A stretch of DNA of 64,000 nt from Candidatus Aminicenantota bacterium. GTDB taxonomy: Bacteria > Acidobacteriota > Aminicenantia > Aminicenantales > UBA4085. Position 1 is the first letter of the stretch; every line of letters begins with the position of its first letter. A program made the position numbers and the translations under genes. The notes under the pieces were generated by a model that saw only the letters and a program-made list of their open reading frames with translations, was not told the DNA's origin and made no database searches. Below, one piece after another: positions 54,724 to 63,118 of this stretch. Location: NCBI GenBank assembly GCA_026393895.1, contig JAPKZG010000096.1, forward strand, positions 1 to 64,000, written 5' to 3'.

Positions 54724-54843
54724 GAAATCGGGGACAGGCGAGGAAATGAGGGACATGACCCGATTTTCTTAAATCGGGATCGTGTCCCCCATTTCTTTGC
54801 CCTTCATGGTAATTAGGGTAATTGGTATTGTGTCCCCGAATTA
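54724..54843. repeat. REP-like elements (two subtypes adjoining)
   Basis: gaaatcggggacaggcg...gacccgattttcttaaatcgggatcgtgtccccc...ggtaattggtattgtgtccccgaatt. Confidence 0.75.
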
Positions 54844-56607
54844 ATATCTCCAGCTCTTCAAATCCGCCCCGAGCGGCGCGGTCTTGAGCAACCGCTCGAT
54901 CGCCCGGGGAATGTACATCTGGTGATAGCGCAGGCGCGAATACGCGTTCGCCCGGGTCGAATCCCCGTTCCAGCAATGCTCGGCCCGGTCGCCGTATTTC
55001 ACTTCGCCCGCGTAATACGGGTCCTTCGTGCTCTCCAGGAACGCCTCCATCAAGTAGACGGCGTTGTTTAAATAGAAGTTATCCATGTCGCCGACATAGA
55101 TGTTGATTTTTCCCTGGAGCTTGGGGCCGAGGGTTTTCCAGTCGCGCTGGAGGATGTAACCGAGGTCGTAATTCTCTTTCCAGTAGGCCGCCACCTTCGG
55201 GTCGATGACGCCCGTGAGCTTGTCCCAGATCGGCTTGGGGTATCCGTCCGCTCCGACAGGGCCGAACACGGCCTGCCAGATGTCCCACTGGTCGCCCGAC
55301 CGGCCGTGGGTGGCGATGGCCAGCTCCCGGTGGTTTCCCTGCTCGAGCGTCGTCGCGACCTCGCCCAGGTAATTGCGCGTGCCCGGCCGCGGCGTTTTCT
55401 TCCACGGGCCGTCGACGTAATAGGCGTTTTTGTGGTCGTAGATGTTGACGACCGTGTAGGCCCGGAAATCGATCGGGTCGGGGCAGGCGGCGTAGCATCC
55501 GTTGAAGTCGTCCGGGTAGAAGACCTGGGCGGCCAGCGCCTCCCAGCCCCCGGTCGAGCCGCCGTACATGAACCGGGCCCAGCCCGCGCCGAGCCCCCGG
55601 AATTTCTTCTCGATGTAGGGGATCAATTCCTTGACGATGGCGTCGCCATAGGGGCCGAGGTTGGCCGAATTGACCGCGTAGGAATCGTCGTAATAGGGAT
55701 TGGCGTGCTGGATTTCGATCACGATCACCCGCGGGAAATCCGGCCCGGTCCAATCTTTGTATAGTTGGTAGGCATACTCCTGCTGGATCCTGTTGTAGCC
55801 GGCCAGGTGAAACCGGTCGCTGTAATCCGGCTTAAGGTCAGGATCGGGGGGCGTTTCACGGAAACCGCCGAACGTGTATGGGAAATGCCCATGTTCGACG
55901 ATGAGGGGATATCGGGCGTTGGGATGTTCGTCGAATCCCTCAGGCAAAAGGACGCAGGCCCCGATTTCCGTCGGCCTCCCCCAGAACTTCGTCAGCAGTT
56001 CGCTTTGGATTTTGACGTGCTTGATGTATTTCGTGTCGGCCGGGGGAGGGATCGGCGGGATTTCCTTGTCGAGGGAAATTTCGATGGCCGGCGATTCGCC
56101 CGCGGGGATCGTGATCTTTTTCGGCTCGCTGTACAAATTCCCCGGCTTCTCGTTCCAGATCTGTCCCTCGCCTTTATCGGGCGGGAGTTTCACCGTAAAA
56201 CCGTCCGACCGGACGAAGGTTTCATACCGGTTGAGAAGCGCCTGGACGTAGTATTCACCCGGCGGGAGTTCGGATAAGCTCGGGATCGGGTAGCCGAAGG
56301 CCGACGCGTCGACCACGGCTTCCGCCCCCGGCGCGAGATTGTCCACGTCGATCCCGAATATCAACTGGGTCGTCGCCCCGTCGTTGATCTGGAAGCGTGG
56401 CTCGGCCGATGCGTCATTTGAAAGCAGGAGCAAGACCCGGCCGTCCAGCGGCTGGGCCGACCGCTCCGCGGGAAACGAGACGGCGAATTTCGGCGATGCG
56501 GCCGCCGAGGATTTCGAGCCGATGTTGCCGGCGGCGCCGATAAAAACAAGAACGGCGGCTGCCGAAACCAAGATTCCTGTGGCGAGAATAAACCGACGTT
56601 GACGCAT
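54841..56607 (-). CDS. Secreted alpha/beta-hydrolase esterase
   Basis: N-term TM; YPLIVEHGHFPYTFGG; MYGGSTGGWEALAAQVFYPDDFNGCYAACPDP. Confidence 0.82.
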   Translation of the reverse strand: MRQRRFILATGILVSAAAVLVFIGAAGNIGSKSSAAASPKFAVSFPAERSAQPLDGRVLLLLSNDASAEPRFQINDGATTQLIFGIDVDNLAPGAEAVVDASAFGYPIPSLSELPPGEYYVQALLNRYETFVRSDGFTVKLPPDKGEGQIWNEKPGNLYSEPKKITIPAGESPAIEISLDKEIPPIPPPADTKYIKHVKIQSELLTKFWGRPTEIGACVLLPEGFDEHPNARYPLIVEHGHFPYTFGGFRETPPDPDLKPDYSDRFHLAGYNRIQQEYAYQLYKDWTGPDFPRVIVIEIQHANPYYDDSYAVNSANLGPYGDAIVKELIPYIEKKFRGLGAGWARFMYGGSTGGWEALAAQVFYPDDFNGCYAACPDPIDFRAYTVVNIYDHKNAYYVDGPWKKTPRPGTRNYLGEVATTLEQGNHRELAIATHGRSGDQWDIWQAVFGPVGADGYPKPIWDKLTGVIDPKVAAYWKENYDLGYILQRDWKTLGPKLQGKINIYVGDMDNFYLNNAVYLMEAFLESTKDPYYAGEVKYGDRAEHCWNGDSTRANAYSRLRYHQMYIPRAIERLLKTAPLGADLKSWRY

Positions 56608-56911: not shown

Positions 56912-56939
56912 TTGACAAAACTGTTTATTGTCTTATAAT
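56912..56939 (+). promoter_or_regulatory. Consensus sigma70 promoter
   Basis: TTGACA-16 nt-TATAAT, 36 nt before the NTase start. Confidence 0.85.
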
Positions 56940-56969
56940 AAGCATATTAAATACTAATAATAAGCATAT
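56935..56969 (+). promoter_or_regulatory. Direct-repeat operator candidate
   Basis: ATAATAAGCATAT at 56935 and 56957 (22-bp spacing), overlapping the -10 and start region. Confidence 0.65.
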
Positions 56970-56975
56970 ATAAGT

Positions 56976-57596
56976 ATGAAAAAACCAAGAAACAACTTGG
57001 AAAGAGCCGATCAGGTCTATCGCGTCTTTGATCTTTTGGGCGTCCTCCTGAGCCAAAGAACTTCCGATCATATCTCTTTGGTCGTTTGCGGAGGATCGGC
57101 GCTGATTTCTTTAGGGCTCGTTTCGCGTGCGACGAAGGACGTCGACGTGGTTGCTCTCCTTGACCGCGGGACGCTTGTTTCCGCGGAGACGATGTCTCCG
57201 GTCCTGATCGAATCGGCCCATCTTGTTTCCCTCGAATTGGGGCTTCCGGAAGATTGGCTGAATTCCGGTCCGACCTCGATTCTCAACGAAAACCTGCCGA
57301 ATCAGGGATTTCCCGTCGGCTTTCAAGATCGGTTAACGCGTCGCGATTTTGGCCCCGTCCTGAGTGTTTATTTTATCAGCCGCTACGACCAGATTCATTT
57401 CAAGCTTTATGCGGCCGCCGATCAAGGCGGTCCAAGTTCCCATTTGATCGATCTTGTCGGCTTGAAACCGTCGGATGACGAACTCCTGGCCGCCGTGGCC
57501 TGGGCGAGACTTCACGATGTGTCGCCGGCATTTCTCGAAACCGTACGGTCGATGCTGGACGCGATGGAGAGACGCCATGTCCTTGCCAGGCTTTAA
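56976..57596 (+). CDS. Nucleotidyltransferase-fold protein (AbiEii/MNT/DUF6036-like), putative toxin
   Basis: VVCGGSALISLGLVSRATKDVDVVAL (GGSA..LGL..R.TxDVD). Confidence 0.8.
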   Translation: MKKPRNNLERADQVYRVFDLLGVLLSQRTSDHISLVVCGGSALISLGLVSRATKDVDVVALLDRGTLVSAETMSPVLIESAHLVSLELGLPEDWLNSGPTSILNENLPNQGFPVGFQDRLTRRDFGPVLSVYFISRYDQIHFKLYAAADQGGPSSHLIDLVGLKPSDDELLAAVAWARLHDVSPAFLETVRSMLDAMERRHVLARL

Positions 57597-58599
57597 AGAA
57601 ACATTCCTACAAAATACGTTGGACCTTCTCTGGGGACAATGGTGCGTCCTTGGAGTCGCCGGACACTCAAAAAAAGCGGGAGCTTATTGTATCGATCCTG
57701 AAGCCCTCCTTCTCGCGACGTGTCGTTTCGGCCGTTTTGACCCGCGTTTATTCGACGGTATGCTCGAATGGCTGACCAGGCATGAAGAATTCCTTAGCTT
57801 GTTGAGAGTTAATACACTCCTGAAAAAAGGATTTGATGAAAGCGCGCAGGTCATGCGTCCCGTCGCCGCCTTCCTCGAGGAGGAATATAAAAAGCATCGA
57901 TGGAGCAAGCTCGTAGGGGAATTACCGGGGATCTCGAAGCCGGAACCGCTTTTTTTCTATGCGAACGGTTTGCCCGTCGAGATCTTCGGCCGGCAAGATG
58001 CTCGTTTTCTTTCGTATGGATTATCAAGAGGCCGCGTCGAGAACAAAGGCCATATCGGGCCTTTTCAGATGAATCATCCCGGATCGCTGCGGCTCCGTCT
58101 TCGCGCCTTGATGGGTGTTTCAAGTCGAACGGACGTTTTAGTCTATTTGATGATGTTCAAGACCGGCGGCCACCCTTCGCTCATCGCAAAAGAGCTCGAC
58201 TATACGCAACGAGGGATCCATCAAGCGCTGGTTTCCATGAGCTTGTCCGGATGGGTCTTGAGAAACGAGAGACCGAGGGAAGTCGTCTATACGGTCGCCG
58301 ACTCCCTTAGGGAGACATTCATTTCGTCACTCAAGCAGAACCCGAAGTGGGTGACGTGGAGCAGGTTTTTTCAAGCTCTTGAAATATTCTGGAAGATTTT
58401 GGAAAAAGCCTCGCCGGACCGATTGCCCGTTGAAGGTCGGTCCGCCGAACTTCGCGGCGCGATGCAGAAGGCATCAAATTTATTGAGTCTTCTCGGATTC
58501 TCCGGGTATTTTCAGGAATGCCAGCAAAAAACGGGAGCGGAATATATTGATTCGCTGGCCGTGGCCTGGGGACATCTGTTCGCTTTGTTGAATGAGTAA
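57577..58599 (+). CDS. ~340-aa protein with central winged-helix DNA-binding segment; partner of the NTase
   Basis: 20-bp overlap with the NTase; VLVYLMMFKTGGHPSLIAKELDYTQRGIHQALVSMSLSGWVLRNERPREVVYTV. Confidence 0.75.
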   Translation: MSLPGFKETFLQNTLDLLWGQWCVLGVAGHSKKAGAYCIDPEALLLATCRFGRFDPRLFDGMLEWLTRHEEFLSLLRVNTLLKKGFDESAQVMRPVAAFLEEEYKKHRWSKLVGELPGISKPEPLFFYANGLPVEIFGRQDARFLSYGLSRGRVENKGHIGPFQMNHPGSLRLRLRALMGVSSRTDVLVYLMMFKTGGHPSLIAKELDYTQRGIHQALVSMSLSGWVLRNERPREVVYTVADSLRETFISSLKQNPKWVTWSRFFQALEIFWKILEKASPDRLPVEGRSAELRGAMQKASNLLSLLGFSGYFQECQQKTGAEYIDSLAVAWGHLFALLNE

Positions 58600-58887: not shown

Positions 58888-60438
58888 ATGAATCATAACG
58901 GAAGCGACATCGAATCGCGCCTCTGGGATGCGGCGGATGAACTACGGGCGAACTCGAAGCTGAAGTCTTCTGAATATTCCGTTCCTGTGCTGGGGCTGGT
59001 CTTTCTACGCTATGCCGATCACAAATTCCAGATGGCGGCGAAAAAAATGGAAGGCGTGGGCAGCGGCCGGCGTAAGATCGGCCCGGCCGACTATCATGCA
59101 AGCGGCGTTCTCTACTTGCCCAAAACCGCGCGATTTTCGTCGCTGATTGCCTTGCCGGAGGGAGCTAATATCGGCCAAGCAATTAACGACGCCATGGGCT
59201 CCATAGAAACGGATAATCCCGATCTCAAGGGCATCCTTCCTAAAACCTACAACCGCTTTGTGAACTCCCTCCTCAAGGAGTTGCTTAAAACAATGAACTC
59301 TGTCCCCATGGATATCGAAGGGGACGCTTTCGGAAAGATTTATGAATATTTTCTTGGCAACTTTGCTAGGGCCGAGGGTCAGAAAGGCGGCGAGTTCTTT
59401 ACTCCCACCGCCATTGTTCAGCTCATTGTCGGCATAATCGAGCCATTTCACGGCCGTATTTTCGACCCTGCCTGCGGATCCGGCGGTATGTTCGTCCAAA
59501 GTGCAAGGTTCGTCACAGAGCATAAAAAGAATCCTGGTGCCGAGCTGAGCGTCTTCGGTCAGGAGAAAGTGGCTGAGACTGTAAAACTGGGCAAGATGAA
59601 CCTCGCTGTCCACGGGCTTGCCGGCGACATCCGCGAGGGAAATTCCTATTACGAAGACTTACACCGCTCTACCGGCATATTCGATTTCGTCATGGCCAAT
59701 CCGCCCTTCAACGTGGGTCGGGTGGACAAGGAGCGGCTCAAGGACGATCCGCGCTTCCCTTTCGGCTTGCCCCGCACCGATAACGCTAATTATCTCTGGA
59801 TTCAACTCTTTTATAGCGCTCTCTCCGAAACCGGACGAGCCGGCTTCGTCATGGCCAATTCCGCATCTGACGCACGCGCTTCGGAGCTAGAAATTCGCAG
59901 GCAGCTCATCGAATCCCATTCTGTTGATGTAATGGTTGCTGTCGGCCCAAACTTTTTTTACACCGTAACACTGCCATGTACCCTTTGGTTTTTTGATCGA
60001 GGCAAAAGAAAAACCGCACGTGTTGAAAAGGTGCTCTTCGTAGATGCCCGCCACCTCTTTCGTCAGATTGATCGTGCCCACCGTGATTGGACACCAAAGC
60101 AGATTGAATTTCTCGCGAACATAGCCCGGGTCTACCGGGGAGAGCCTGTCGAGAACTTGCATGACAGCGCGGGGCTGATGGCCGAGCACTTCCCCAAGGG
60201 AAAATATATCGACGTGGCAGGGTTGTGCAAAGTGGCGACCTTAGCCGAGATCGAAGCCCAGGGCTGGAGCCTCAACCCCGGCCGCTATGTGGGCGTGGCC
60301 GAGCGCGAGGAAGATAATTTCGACTTCAAGGCGCGGCTAGAGGAGCTGAACGAGGAACTAGAAACCCTCAACACCGAAGCGAGAGAGCTGGAGGAGCGGA
60401 TCGGGGAGAATGTGGAAAAATTGATGGAACAAGCATGA
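58888..60438 (+). CDS. hsdM: Type I R-M system methyltransferase subunit
   Basis: [44 protein letters not shown]. Confidence 0.97.
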
Positions 60439-61706
60439 AGTCAGAATCACATCAACTCAAGAGCGTCCGATTAGATGAGGTCTGCCGTTTAGTGACTGAT
60501 GGCACTCACGATTCGCCTAAGCTACAACTGACCGGAGTGCCATTCATTAAGGGAAAGCATATTTCTGGTGGTTTTGTTGATTTTGAAAATTGTGACTTCA
60601 TAACAATATACGACCACCGCAAAGCCATCTTACGTTCAAAACCGGAACGGGGCGACATTCTGTTCTCGAATATCGGTTCAGTAGGAGATGCGGTTTACGT
60701 CAGAACAAACAGAGAGTTCAGCATCAAGAATGTAGCCTTGTTCAAACCGGACTATACAAAAGTAGACAGTCGTTATCTCTACTATGTGGTTATAGGTCCT
60801 GAGTTTCGTGGTGAATTGATGTCAAAACGCCAAGGCGTTGCCCAGCCATTCTTCTCGCTCGAGATACTGAGAAGCCATCAAGTCCGTTATCATGAAGATA
60901 TTATGATACAGCGCAAAATTGCGGCGATACTTTCAGCATACGACGACCTGATCGAGAACAACCTGCGGCGGATCAAGATTTTGGAGGAAATGGCCCAAAA
61001 TCTTTATCGCGAATGGTTCGTGAACTTCCGCTTCCTCGGCCACCAGCGTGTACGCTTCATTGATTCGCCCCTCGGCCGGATTCCGGAGGGGTGGGAGGTG
61101 AAATGTATTGGCGATACCTTTGTAACTGTACTCGGTGGAACACCATCTAGAGAAAAGCCTGAATACTGGGATGGCGGCACAATCCCCTGGATTAACTCAG
61201 GTAAGGTAAACGAACGGCGTATTATCGAGCCATCCGAGCTTATCACGGAACTCGCCCTCAATCGGTCTGCCTCAAAACTCATGGGGAAAGGAACGACAGT
61301 TTTGGCGATCACAGGAGCGACCCTTGGCCAAGTCAGCTACCTCGAAATTGAAACCACAGCAAATCAATCAGTCGTTGGAATCACCGACTTGTCAGGCGTT
61401 CGTTCCGAGTGGATTTATCTCACAATTTGTAACCGCATCGAAGGTATTGTGAAACATGCTAGTGGTGGTGCTCAACAACACATTAACAAGGAAGTAGTGA
61501 ATAACGTTCTTGTCGTGTTACCACCTGTAAAACTTGCGTTGATGTTTAAGCACCTCATCGAGCCAGTATTCCGAGAAATTGCAACGCTCTTATTTCAACA
61601 AAAAAATCTCCGCCGCACCCGCGACCTGCTGCTACCAAAGCTCATCTCCGGCGAGGTAGATGTGTCGAAGATGGACATCGTCATTCCCGCGGAGACCGGT
61701 GGATGA
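60435..61706 (+). CDS. hsdS: Type I R-M specificity subunit
   Basis: Two TRDs separated by [34 protein letters not shown]; second conserved region at the C-term. Confidence 0.95.
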
Positions 61707-63118
61707 AAGCTACCGATCTTGAAATTCTGCTCCAGGAAGGCGAAGGGGTCATGCTGGAGTACAAAGAAAATATTTCTGCTTCTTTCGCCCGCGAAATGGT
61801 AGCCTTGGCCAACACCGCGGGCGGAAGGATTCTTCTGGGAGTTCGGGATGATGGTACGGTAAAGGGCATCGCCGATACCAACGCATTGCGCGCCCGCATC
61901 CAGGATATTGCCCGCAACTGCGATCCGCCGGTAAAAATCCTGTTGCAGCGCATCGGCAAAGTAACCGTCGTTATGGTGCGCGAGAGTGATGCGAAGCCAG
62001 TCCAATGCAGCGATGGTTTTTTCTGGCGGCAAGGCGCGGAGACGCAAAAGCTATCCCGCGGGGAAATCCGTGATCTCTTTCAACAGGCCGGGGCCATCCG
62101 TTTCGATTTTTCCGTCTGTCCTCACTTTCGTTATCCCGATGATTTCGACCCGGATAAATTTAACGATTGGCTGAGAAAAAGTACGATCTCCCGGAACGGA
62201 GCGGCAGAGGATATTCTGGTGAACATCGAGGCGGCGGAACGTTCGGGCAGCAAGCTGCTATTCCGCAACGCCGGAGTACTGTTCTTCGCCCGTGAGCCTC
62301 GGCGATTCTTTAATCAAGCCTATGTCACCTGTCTATTATTCAAAGGCACAAGCAAGGTGCATATTCTTGACCGAAAGGATTTTGGCGAGGGCTTTGTCTC
62401 CGACATCGAAGAGAGTATGCGATTCCTCGAACGCAATACCCGCACGGCCTACCGGATCGAGAAGCTCCAACGCGAAGAAATTCCGGAATATCCTATGGCT
62501 GCCCTGCGAGAGGCCATCACCAATGCCATGATGCATCGCGACTGGTTTATCGAAGGGGCCAATGTCTTTGTTGAGATTAGCGAGGATCGCATCGAAGTAT
62601 CGAGTCCCGGTGGTCTCCCGAAAGGGATGCTTCCCGAGGATCTTGGCCATAAGAGCGTCCGCCGCAACCCTCTGATTGCCGATCTTCTGCATCGCATTGC
62701 CTTTATTGAAAAGGCCGGTACGGGCATTCGCCGGATGCGGGATGGGGCCAGAAATCAAGGGTATTGCGAACCCGAGTTTTTCACCGGCAGTTTTTTTACT
62801 GCCATATTTCGTCCGGTTGTCGCTATGGTTGGACCAAGTGCCCCGCAAGTACCCCGCAAGTACCCAGCAAGTACCCCGCAACTTTTGGCAATACTCAACT
62901 CCGCGGCATTAGGGGAGAAATCCAGAGAAGAATTGCAGATTGCAGCGGAAATTAAGGACCGGGAGCACTTTCGTAAGCAATACCTCGAAGTCCTTCTTTC
63001 TGCGGATCTCTTGGAACGGACCATCCCTGACAAACCGCAAAGCCCGAAACAGCGATACCGAATCACCGTAGCCGGACGCAGTTTTCTTGAAAAAACCGCA
63101 AAGGAATCGAAATCATGA
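61703..63118 (+). CDS. AlbA_2/Schlafen-like putative ATP-binding protein in the R-M operon
   Basis: MLEYKENISASFAREMVALANTAGGRILLGVRDDGTVKGI; ALREAITNAMMHRDW, PGGLPKGM. Confidence 0.9.
   Translation: MKATDLEILLQEGEGVMLEYKENISASFAREMVALANTAGGRILLGVRDDGTVKGIADTNALRARIQDIARNCDPPVKILLQRIGKVTVVMVRESDAKPVQCSDGFFWRQGAETQKLSRGEIRDLFQQAGAIRFDFSVCPHFRYPDDFDPDKFNDWLRKSTISRNGAAEDILVNIEAAERSGSKLLFRNAGVLFFAREPRRFFNQAYVTCLLFKGTSKVHILDRKDFGEGFVSDIEESMRFLERNTRTAYRIEKLQREEIPEYPMAALREAITNAMMHRDWFIEGANVFVEISEDRIEVSSPGGLPKGMLPEDLGHKSVRRNPLIADLLHRIAFIEKAGTGIRRMRDGARNQGYCEPEFFTGSFFTAIFRPVVAMVGPSAPQVPRKYPASTPQLLAILNSAALGEKSREELQIAAEIKDREHFRKQYLEVLLSADLLERTIPDKPQSPKQRYRITVAGRSFLEKTAKESKS
62837..62880 (+). repeat. 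11-bp tandem repeat x4 within the AlbA_2 gene
   Basis: AGTgCCCCGCA AGTACCCCGCA AGTACCCaGCA AGTACCCCGCA. Confidence 0.95.

Follow-up and report, generated by a model that had tools for sequence, protein, structure and literature searches.

Introduction

Small nucleotidyltransferases (NTases) encoded beside larger helical partners are known from MNT-HEPN systems (MntA/HepT), in which the partner is defined by a conserved HEPN R-x(4-6)-H motif. In AbiE (AbiEi/AbiEii, DUF1814) a pol-beta NTase and a winged-helix (wHTH) autorepressor form a bicistronic operon with operator repeats at its promoter, and the NTase is defined by motifs I-IV, with hG[G/S]..DhD, KLxA as motif III and +DxxD as motif IV (PMC3985639). 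A further described system is MenAT (MenT1/MenA1, MenT3/TglT; PMC11375011, PMC10435456), with R37, T39, D41, K137 and D152 as the catalytic residues of MenT1 (PMC11375011).

The regulation of type I restriction-modification (R-M) operons is poorly known. A recent example is RptR, which is found with the toxin-antitoxin pair DarTG2 in a type I R-M operon and acts as repressor on repeats at the operon promoter (PMC12255303). With this precedent the general idea of such a pair inside an R-M operon is therefore known; the components of the module described here, likewise a proposed toxin-antitoxin pair, differ. DarTG2 lies between hsdS and hsdR, whereas our pair usually lies between hsdM and hsdS. 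There the toxin is DarT and the repressor a separate 9-kDa protein; here repression likely falls to the partner encoded in the pair itself. MenAT, unlike this module, is not known within R-M operons. Our literature search for NTase pairs in R-M operons returned RptR/DarTG2 and no description of, or experiment on, the present module, a prior listing elsewhere being possible. DUF6036, the family of its NTase, found no mention in the literature searched.

Results and Discussion

Locus and R-M operon

The window analysed here is a stretch of 64,000 nucleotides from a Candidatus Aminicenantota bacterium; its relevant features are collected in Table 1. A first-pass annotation had described a consensus promoter in front of a 206-aa protein with an NTase signature, overlapping by 20 bp a protein of about 340 aa with a central wHTH-like segment. 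All of these parts were recovered, the overlap of ORF1 and ORF2 being 20 bp. With a predicted promoter of its own, the pair stands upstream of a complete type I R-M operon, hsdM beginning about 290 bp downstream and hsdR extending past the window to 66255 on the same contig (L103:7116-10256). The GC content, about 0.60 outside this block, falls to about 0.51 at its start, which is consistent with acquisition. Rfam gave no matches near the locus.

Table 1. Features of the NTase/wHTH pair and the adjoining type I R-M operon in the window.
Feature	Coordinates	Strand	Basis
Sigma-70-type promoter, TTGACA-N16-TATAAT	56912..56939	+	12/12 consensus positions; sequence match only
First direct repeat (CTTATAATAAGCATAT); candidate operator, overlaps the -10 box	56932..56947	+	
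Second direct repeat (CTAATAATAAGCATAT), 22 bp from the first	56954..56969	+	
NTase (ORF1), DUF6036 subfamily, 206 aa	56976..57596	+	PF19502 profile, AF2 model, conserved columns
wHTH partner (ORF2), 340 aa, proposed antitoxin/repressor	57577..58599 (ATG 57577)	+	AF2, profile matches, position 3' of NTase
Winged-helix segment of partner, residues 183-240	58123..58296	+	AF2 secondary structure, ArsR-family PDB profile matches
HsdM, type I methyltransferase subunit; ATG chosen as start	58891..60438	+	PF02384 1.2e-81, PF12161 3.2e-20
HsdS, specificity subunit	60435..61706	+	PF01420 3.1e-22
SLFN_AlbA_2 / HATPase_c_4 / Fic-like_C protein within the R-M operon, between hsdS and hsdR	61703..63118	+	
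hsdR start, 1046 aa	63115..64000	+	HSDR_N, SWI2_SNF2, T1RH-like_C

On its other side the pair adjoins, in divergent orientation, the gene of a 588-aa protein (54841-56607) without a Pfam match at E 1e-5. Proteins similar to that of 61703-63118 occur near the pair in loci L034, L038 and L086. About 1.2 kb beyond hsdR lies a gene for a Fic/DOC protein that has a wHTH at its C-terminus (contig C31:67487-68644; L103:11488-12645); the loci L049, L074 and L086, too, have Fic proteins near the pair.

The nucleotidyltransferase

ORF1 bears VVCGGSALISLGLVSRATKDVDVV and matches PF19502 (DUF6036) with 32.6 bits and an E value of 8.4e-8, the Pfam gathering cut-off of 23.6 being exceeded. It is a complete pol-beta nucleotidyltransferase of this family, with G39-G40, R51-x-T53-x-D55-x-D57, K143, H156 and D159 as motif residues. 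Among 76 aligned sequences G40, T53, D57, R119, D138, K143, D149 and D159 are invariant, and R51 and D55 are each kept in 75. The AF2 model (pLDDT 92.4) has as nearest solved folds in Foldseek 5uvd (prob 0.98), MenAT1 (0.82) and TglT (MenT3; 0.77), all of these fold matches being weak (E 0.03-0.4, TM <0.5).

Similar to MenAT, the R-x-T-x-D, K and D elements occur in the same order and with near-equal spacing as the catalytic set of MenT1, a comparison made with no solved structure, in which R51, T53, D55, K143 and D159 take the corresponding places. The threonine at the phosphoacceptor position (T39 in MenT1) is invariant as T53. The residues on which catalysis depends, and toxicity in the case of MenT1, appear to be retained. 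Motifs I-III of AbiE are found as well, including the arginine of motif II, whereas motif IV is replaced by HxxD in 75 of the 76 sequences.

The winged-helix partner

The partner consists of an N-terminal helical domain (residues 1-113), a middle part (114-167), the wHTH (about 168-250) and a C-terminal helical region (260-340), and its AF2 model reaches a pLDDT of 95.1. ArsR-type PDB sequences match the family profile at residues 185-253 (best E 2.5e-4). Solved structures match the partner over its wHTH only and are generic wHTH folds. The central ArsR/MarR-like winged helix is real, and the remainder of the protein is helical and without matches; ORF2 gave nothing above noise against Pfam, NCBIfam and PADLOC. 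The recognition helix (residues 211-224) has a clade-specific sequence. Pairwise identity amounts to 0.43 in the N-terminal domain, 0.38 in the wHTH and 0.25 at the C-terminus. The N-terminal domain is the best-conserved part of the partner, as expected of a domain contacting a conserved toxin.

That the partner resembles neither AbiEi nor HEPN proteins had been suggested from the outset, and this holds. The pairing of a small NTase with a larger helical protein, as in MNT-HEPN, might be taken to mean that the roles are reversed and the NTase is an antitoxin nucleotidylating a larger toxin. However, the invariant and near-invariant columns of a 70-sequence alignment contain neither a conserved His nor an R-x(4-6)-H motif, and the partner is a wHTH protein for which Pfam gave no family of nucleases or other enzymes above noise, which makes such an exchange of roles improbable.

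A divergent but ordinary AbiE system (AbiEi-AbiEii, type IV) would account for the KLxA of motif III and for the weak AbiEii matches of the NTase, which cover its catalytic region only (Pfam 0.038, PADLOC 0.002). The Pfam cut-off is passed by DUF6036 and not by AbiEii (14.4 bits, cut-off 22.5), no AbiEi model in Pfam or PADLOC matches the partner, the wHTH is central rather than N-terminal in a 340-aa protein, the NTase of about 200 aa is the first gene, and motif IV reads HxxD instead of DxxD; we therefore hold this explanation to be very improbable. Nor does the partner show likeness to MenA-type antitoxins in sequence or fold searches. By analogy, the module may work like AbiE and MenAT and yet would belong to neither, because the partner does not fit AbiE, motif IV departs from the AbiE form, and the partner is unlike MenA.

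Pairing and distribution

A scan of one genome per species yielded 192 relatives, from which 80 loci were kept. In all 76 loci with a continuing contig the partner follows directly 3' of the NTase; in the other four the contig ends within about 150 bp. The first-pass annotation had noted that the gene order is reversed with respect to AbiE and had asked for a survey of neighbourhood conservation; the NTase is upstream in 76/76 loci and the pair is co-conserved in each of them. Both genes overlap in 75 of the 76, most of these overlaps being 20, 26 or 32 bp long; for this reason the overlap is not due to chance; the exception, L102, has a 28-bp gap. NTase and wHTH partner are a strict two-gene module. 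Their tree distances are highly correlated (Pearson 0.84, Spearman 0.48), a measure by which interaction and co-inheritance are inseparable.

The pair is spread over some 15 phyla (NCBI names) and is found in 6 of 60 close relatives of the window organism and, within the phylum, in 10 of 396 genomes. Of the 80 copies the majority, 66, do not adjoin R-M genes. The neighbour survey of these stand-alone loci revealed no recurrent third gene and no clear excess of defence genes when near and far neighbours were compared. The NTase had no match in plasmid and phage collections. The hallmarks of toxin-antitoxin systems that are present comprise the overlapping two-gene operon, the sporadic distribution and a candidate operator at the module's own promoter.

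This distribution also bears on the counter-case named in the first-pass annotation, a housekeeping NTase, which did not emerge. The complete catalytic motifs would suit a housekeeping nucleotidyltransferase with its regulator, but the pair is patchy among close relatives, present in two copies in some genomes (L034/L035, L036/L042, G102), set in variable neighbourhoods and repeatedly inserted into R-M operons, and TglT/MenT3 and MenT1 are among the nearest folds. A housekeeping role is scarcely credible.

Embedding in type I R-M operons

Thirteen of the 80 loci and three relatives of the window organism carry the pair within a type I R-M operon, usually in the order hsdM-NTase-wHTH-hsdS. hsdM is directly upstream of the NTase in 12 loci, and hsdS comes after the partner wherever the contig reaches, with one small ORF in between in L084. 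The thirteenth embedded locus, L099, starts at the NTase and has hsdS downstream, and in L074 the pair is upstream of an hsdM. Of the three relatives, L002 and L005 show the full order and L006 has hsdM and NTase before the contig ends. On the NTase tree seven changes between R-M-linked and other positions are counted, at least five of them forced by well-supported branches, compared with an average of 16.7 for random labels. The R-M link is therefore clustered in one deep clade and was also gained or lost several times.

The putative link to phage defence consists in this computed association with type I R-M operons. The link to type I R-M that had been proposed for the window is thus real; only adjacency had been noted, and the embedding of relatives between hsdM and hsdS had escaped attention. 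The same applies to the overall reading, which had the parts, the pairing and the R-M link right and missed the embedding, the clade-specific candidate operators and where these lie in embedded operons, upstream of hsdM, as well as the assignment to DUF6036 and the stand-alone nature of most copies.

As a separate observation, a gene for a YgjP-like metallopeptidase, assigned by eye from sequence, follows hsdR in the embedded operons of L059, L068, L088 and L095.

Promoter and candidate operators

The direct repeats in front of the window pair consist of CTWATAATAAGCATAT twice, and this candidate operator is not palindromic. Their exact 13-mer ATAATAAGCATAT occurs at these two repeat sites only in the 2.96-Mb genome. 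The repeat core ATAATAAGCAT matches the half-site of clades D/E, ATAAATAGCAT, at 9 of 11 positions.

Alignments of the upstream regions of relatives revealed short conserved palindromes amid otherwise unrelated sequence, at fixed distances before the NTase start and specific for each clade. Clade A has AAACAC-N9-GTGTTTA at -32 in 10 loci, with no occurrence elsewhere in 883 kb; seven clade B loci have, at -35 to -37, a TTGAAcTAC palindrome that occurs once elsewhere. In clades D/E ATGCTATTTAT is found in 10 loci from Verrucomicrobiota, Thermodesulfobacteriota and Myxococcota, and nowhere else. In clade C, which has the hsdM-NTase-wHTH-hsdS order, the NTase usually starts 0-3 bp past hsdM, and TAAACTAT/ATAGTTTA is located upstream of hsdM in six loci of different phyla (one occurrence elsewhere in 91 kb). 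The TAAACTAT motif was absent from 19 control hsdM loci (81 kb). Counting against the pattern, it is also missing from L053 and L041, the upstream sequence of L041 being only about 105 bp long. A generic inverted-repeat score over all loci gave a modest excess (6.6 compared to 5.5 for shuffles), owing to misplaced starts in some loci and to the absence of a clear palindrome from some clades; the clade-wise motif counts are far more specific.

The recognition helices of the partner are split by the same clades as the palindromes. Palindromes that track the recognition helix and are shifted upstream of hsdM in clade C are what is new here. Within one clade, common operators may partly be due to common descent. 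The simplest reading is that the partner would bind these sites and autoregulate.

Clade-specific candidate operators with matching recognition helices, and the candidate operator upstream of hsdM in embedded operons, could also belong to a regulatory or sensor device. Neither protein would then be toxic, and the operator would be switched through modification, by the NTase, of the wHTH protein, of a small molecule or of a nucleic acid. Most copies, however, stand alone and share no common target gene, to which a self-sufficient module fits better than a regulator, and NTase toxins are among the nearest solved folds. We regard a purely regulatory device as unlikely.

Proposed function

The pair is probably a self-contained, autoregulated toxin-antitoxin-like module with the NTase as toxin and the wHTH protein as antitoxin and repressor, and the embedded copies would bring the R-M operon under this repressor. 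We favour the NTase as the toxin and the wHTH protein as the antitoxin and repressor that holds it, because the catalytic residues are kept and the N-terminal domain of the partner is its best-conserved part. In analogy with MenT and AbiEii, the NTase would add nucleotides to RNA, probably tRNA. The conserved N-terminal helical domain of the partner probably binds and restrains it, while the wHTH would bind the operator at the pair's promoter. DNA binding, neutralisation, toxicity with its RNA target and trigger, and phage defence are all inferences for this module.

The module travels alone and, on this reading, was captured by type I R-M operons more than once. Since the main captured clade has its candidate operator in front of hsdM, the wHTH protein is there likely to repress the R-M genes and the toxin as one operon. 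If the repressor were lost, for example upon phage takeover, restriction would rise and the toxin would be set free at the same time. In the window, where the pair has a promoter of its own and hsdM is about 290 bp away, such control of the R-M operon is less certain. That the antitoxin doubles as master repressor of its host R-M operon, so that its loss in infection would both lift the repression of restriction and set the NTase toxin loose as a fallback, is put forward tentatively.

On this proposal a compact NTase pair would carry an operator-repressor code of its own, which can be read across phyla and is set before hsdM, and would link a candidate suicide module to restriction in a directly testable manner. 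If true, a function would also be assigned to a subfamily of DUF6036. The family as a whole is heterogeneous, and most of its other members occur without this partner, so the pairing is a property of the subfamily. Outside the subfamily, the window genome contains two further DUF6036 NTases (G000:C45:38392-38799 and G000:C1:8696-8809). In L133 the order is reversed, a protein weakly matching the partner profile (E 1e-7) preceding a DUF6036 NTase.
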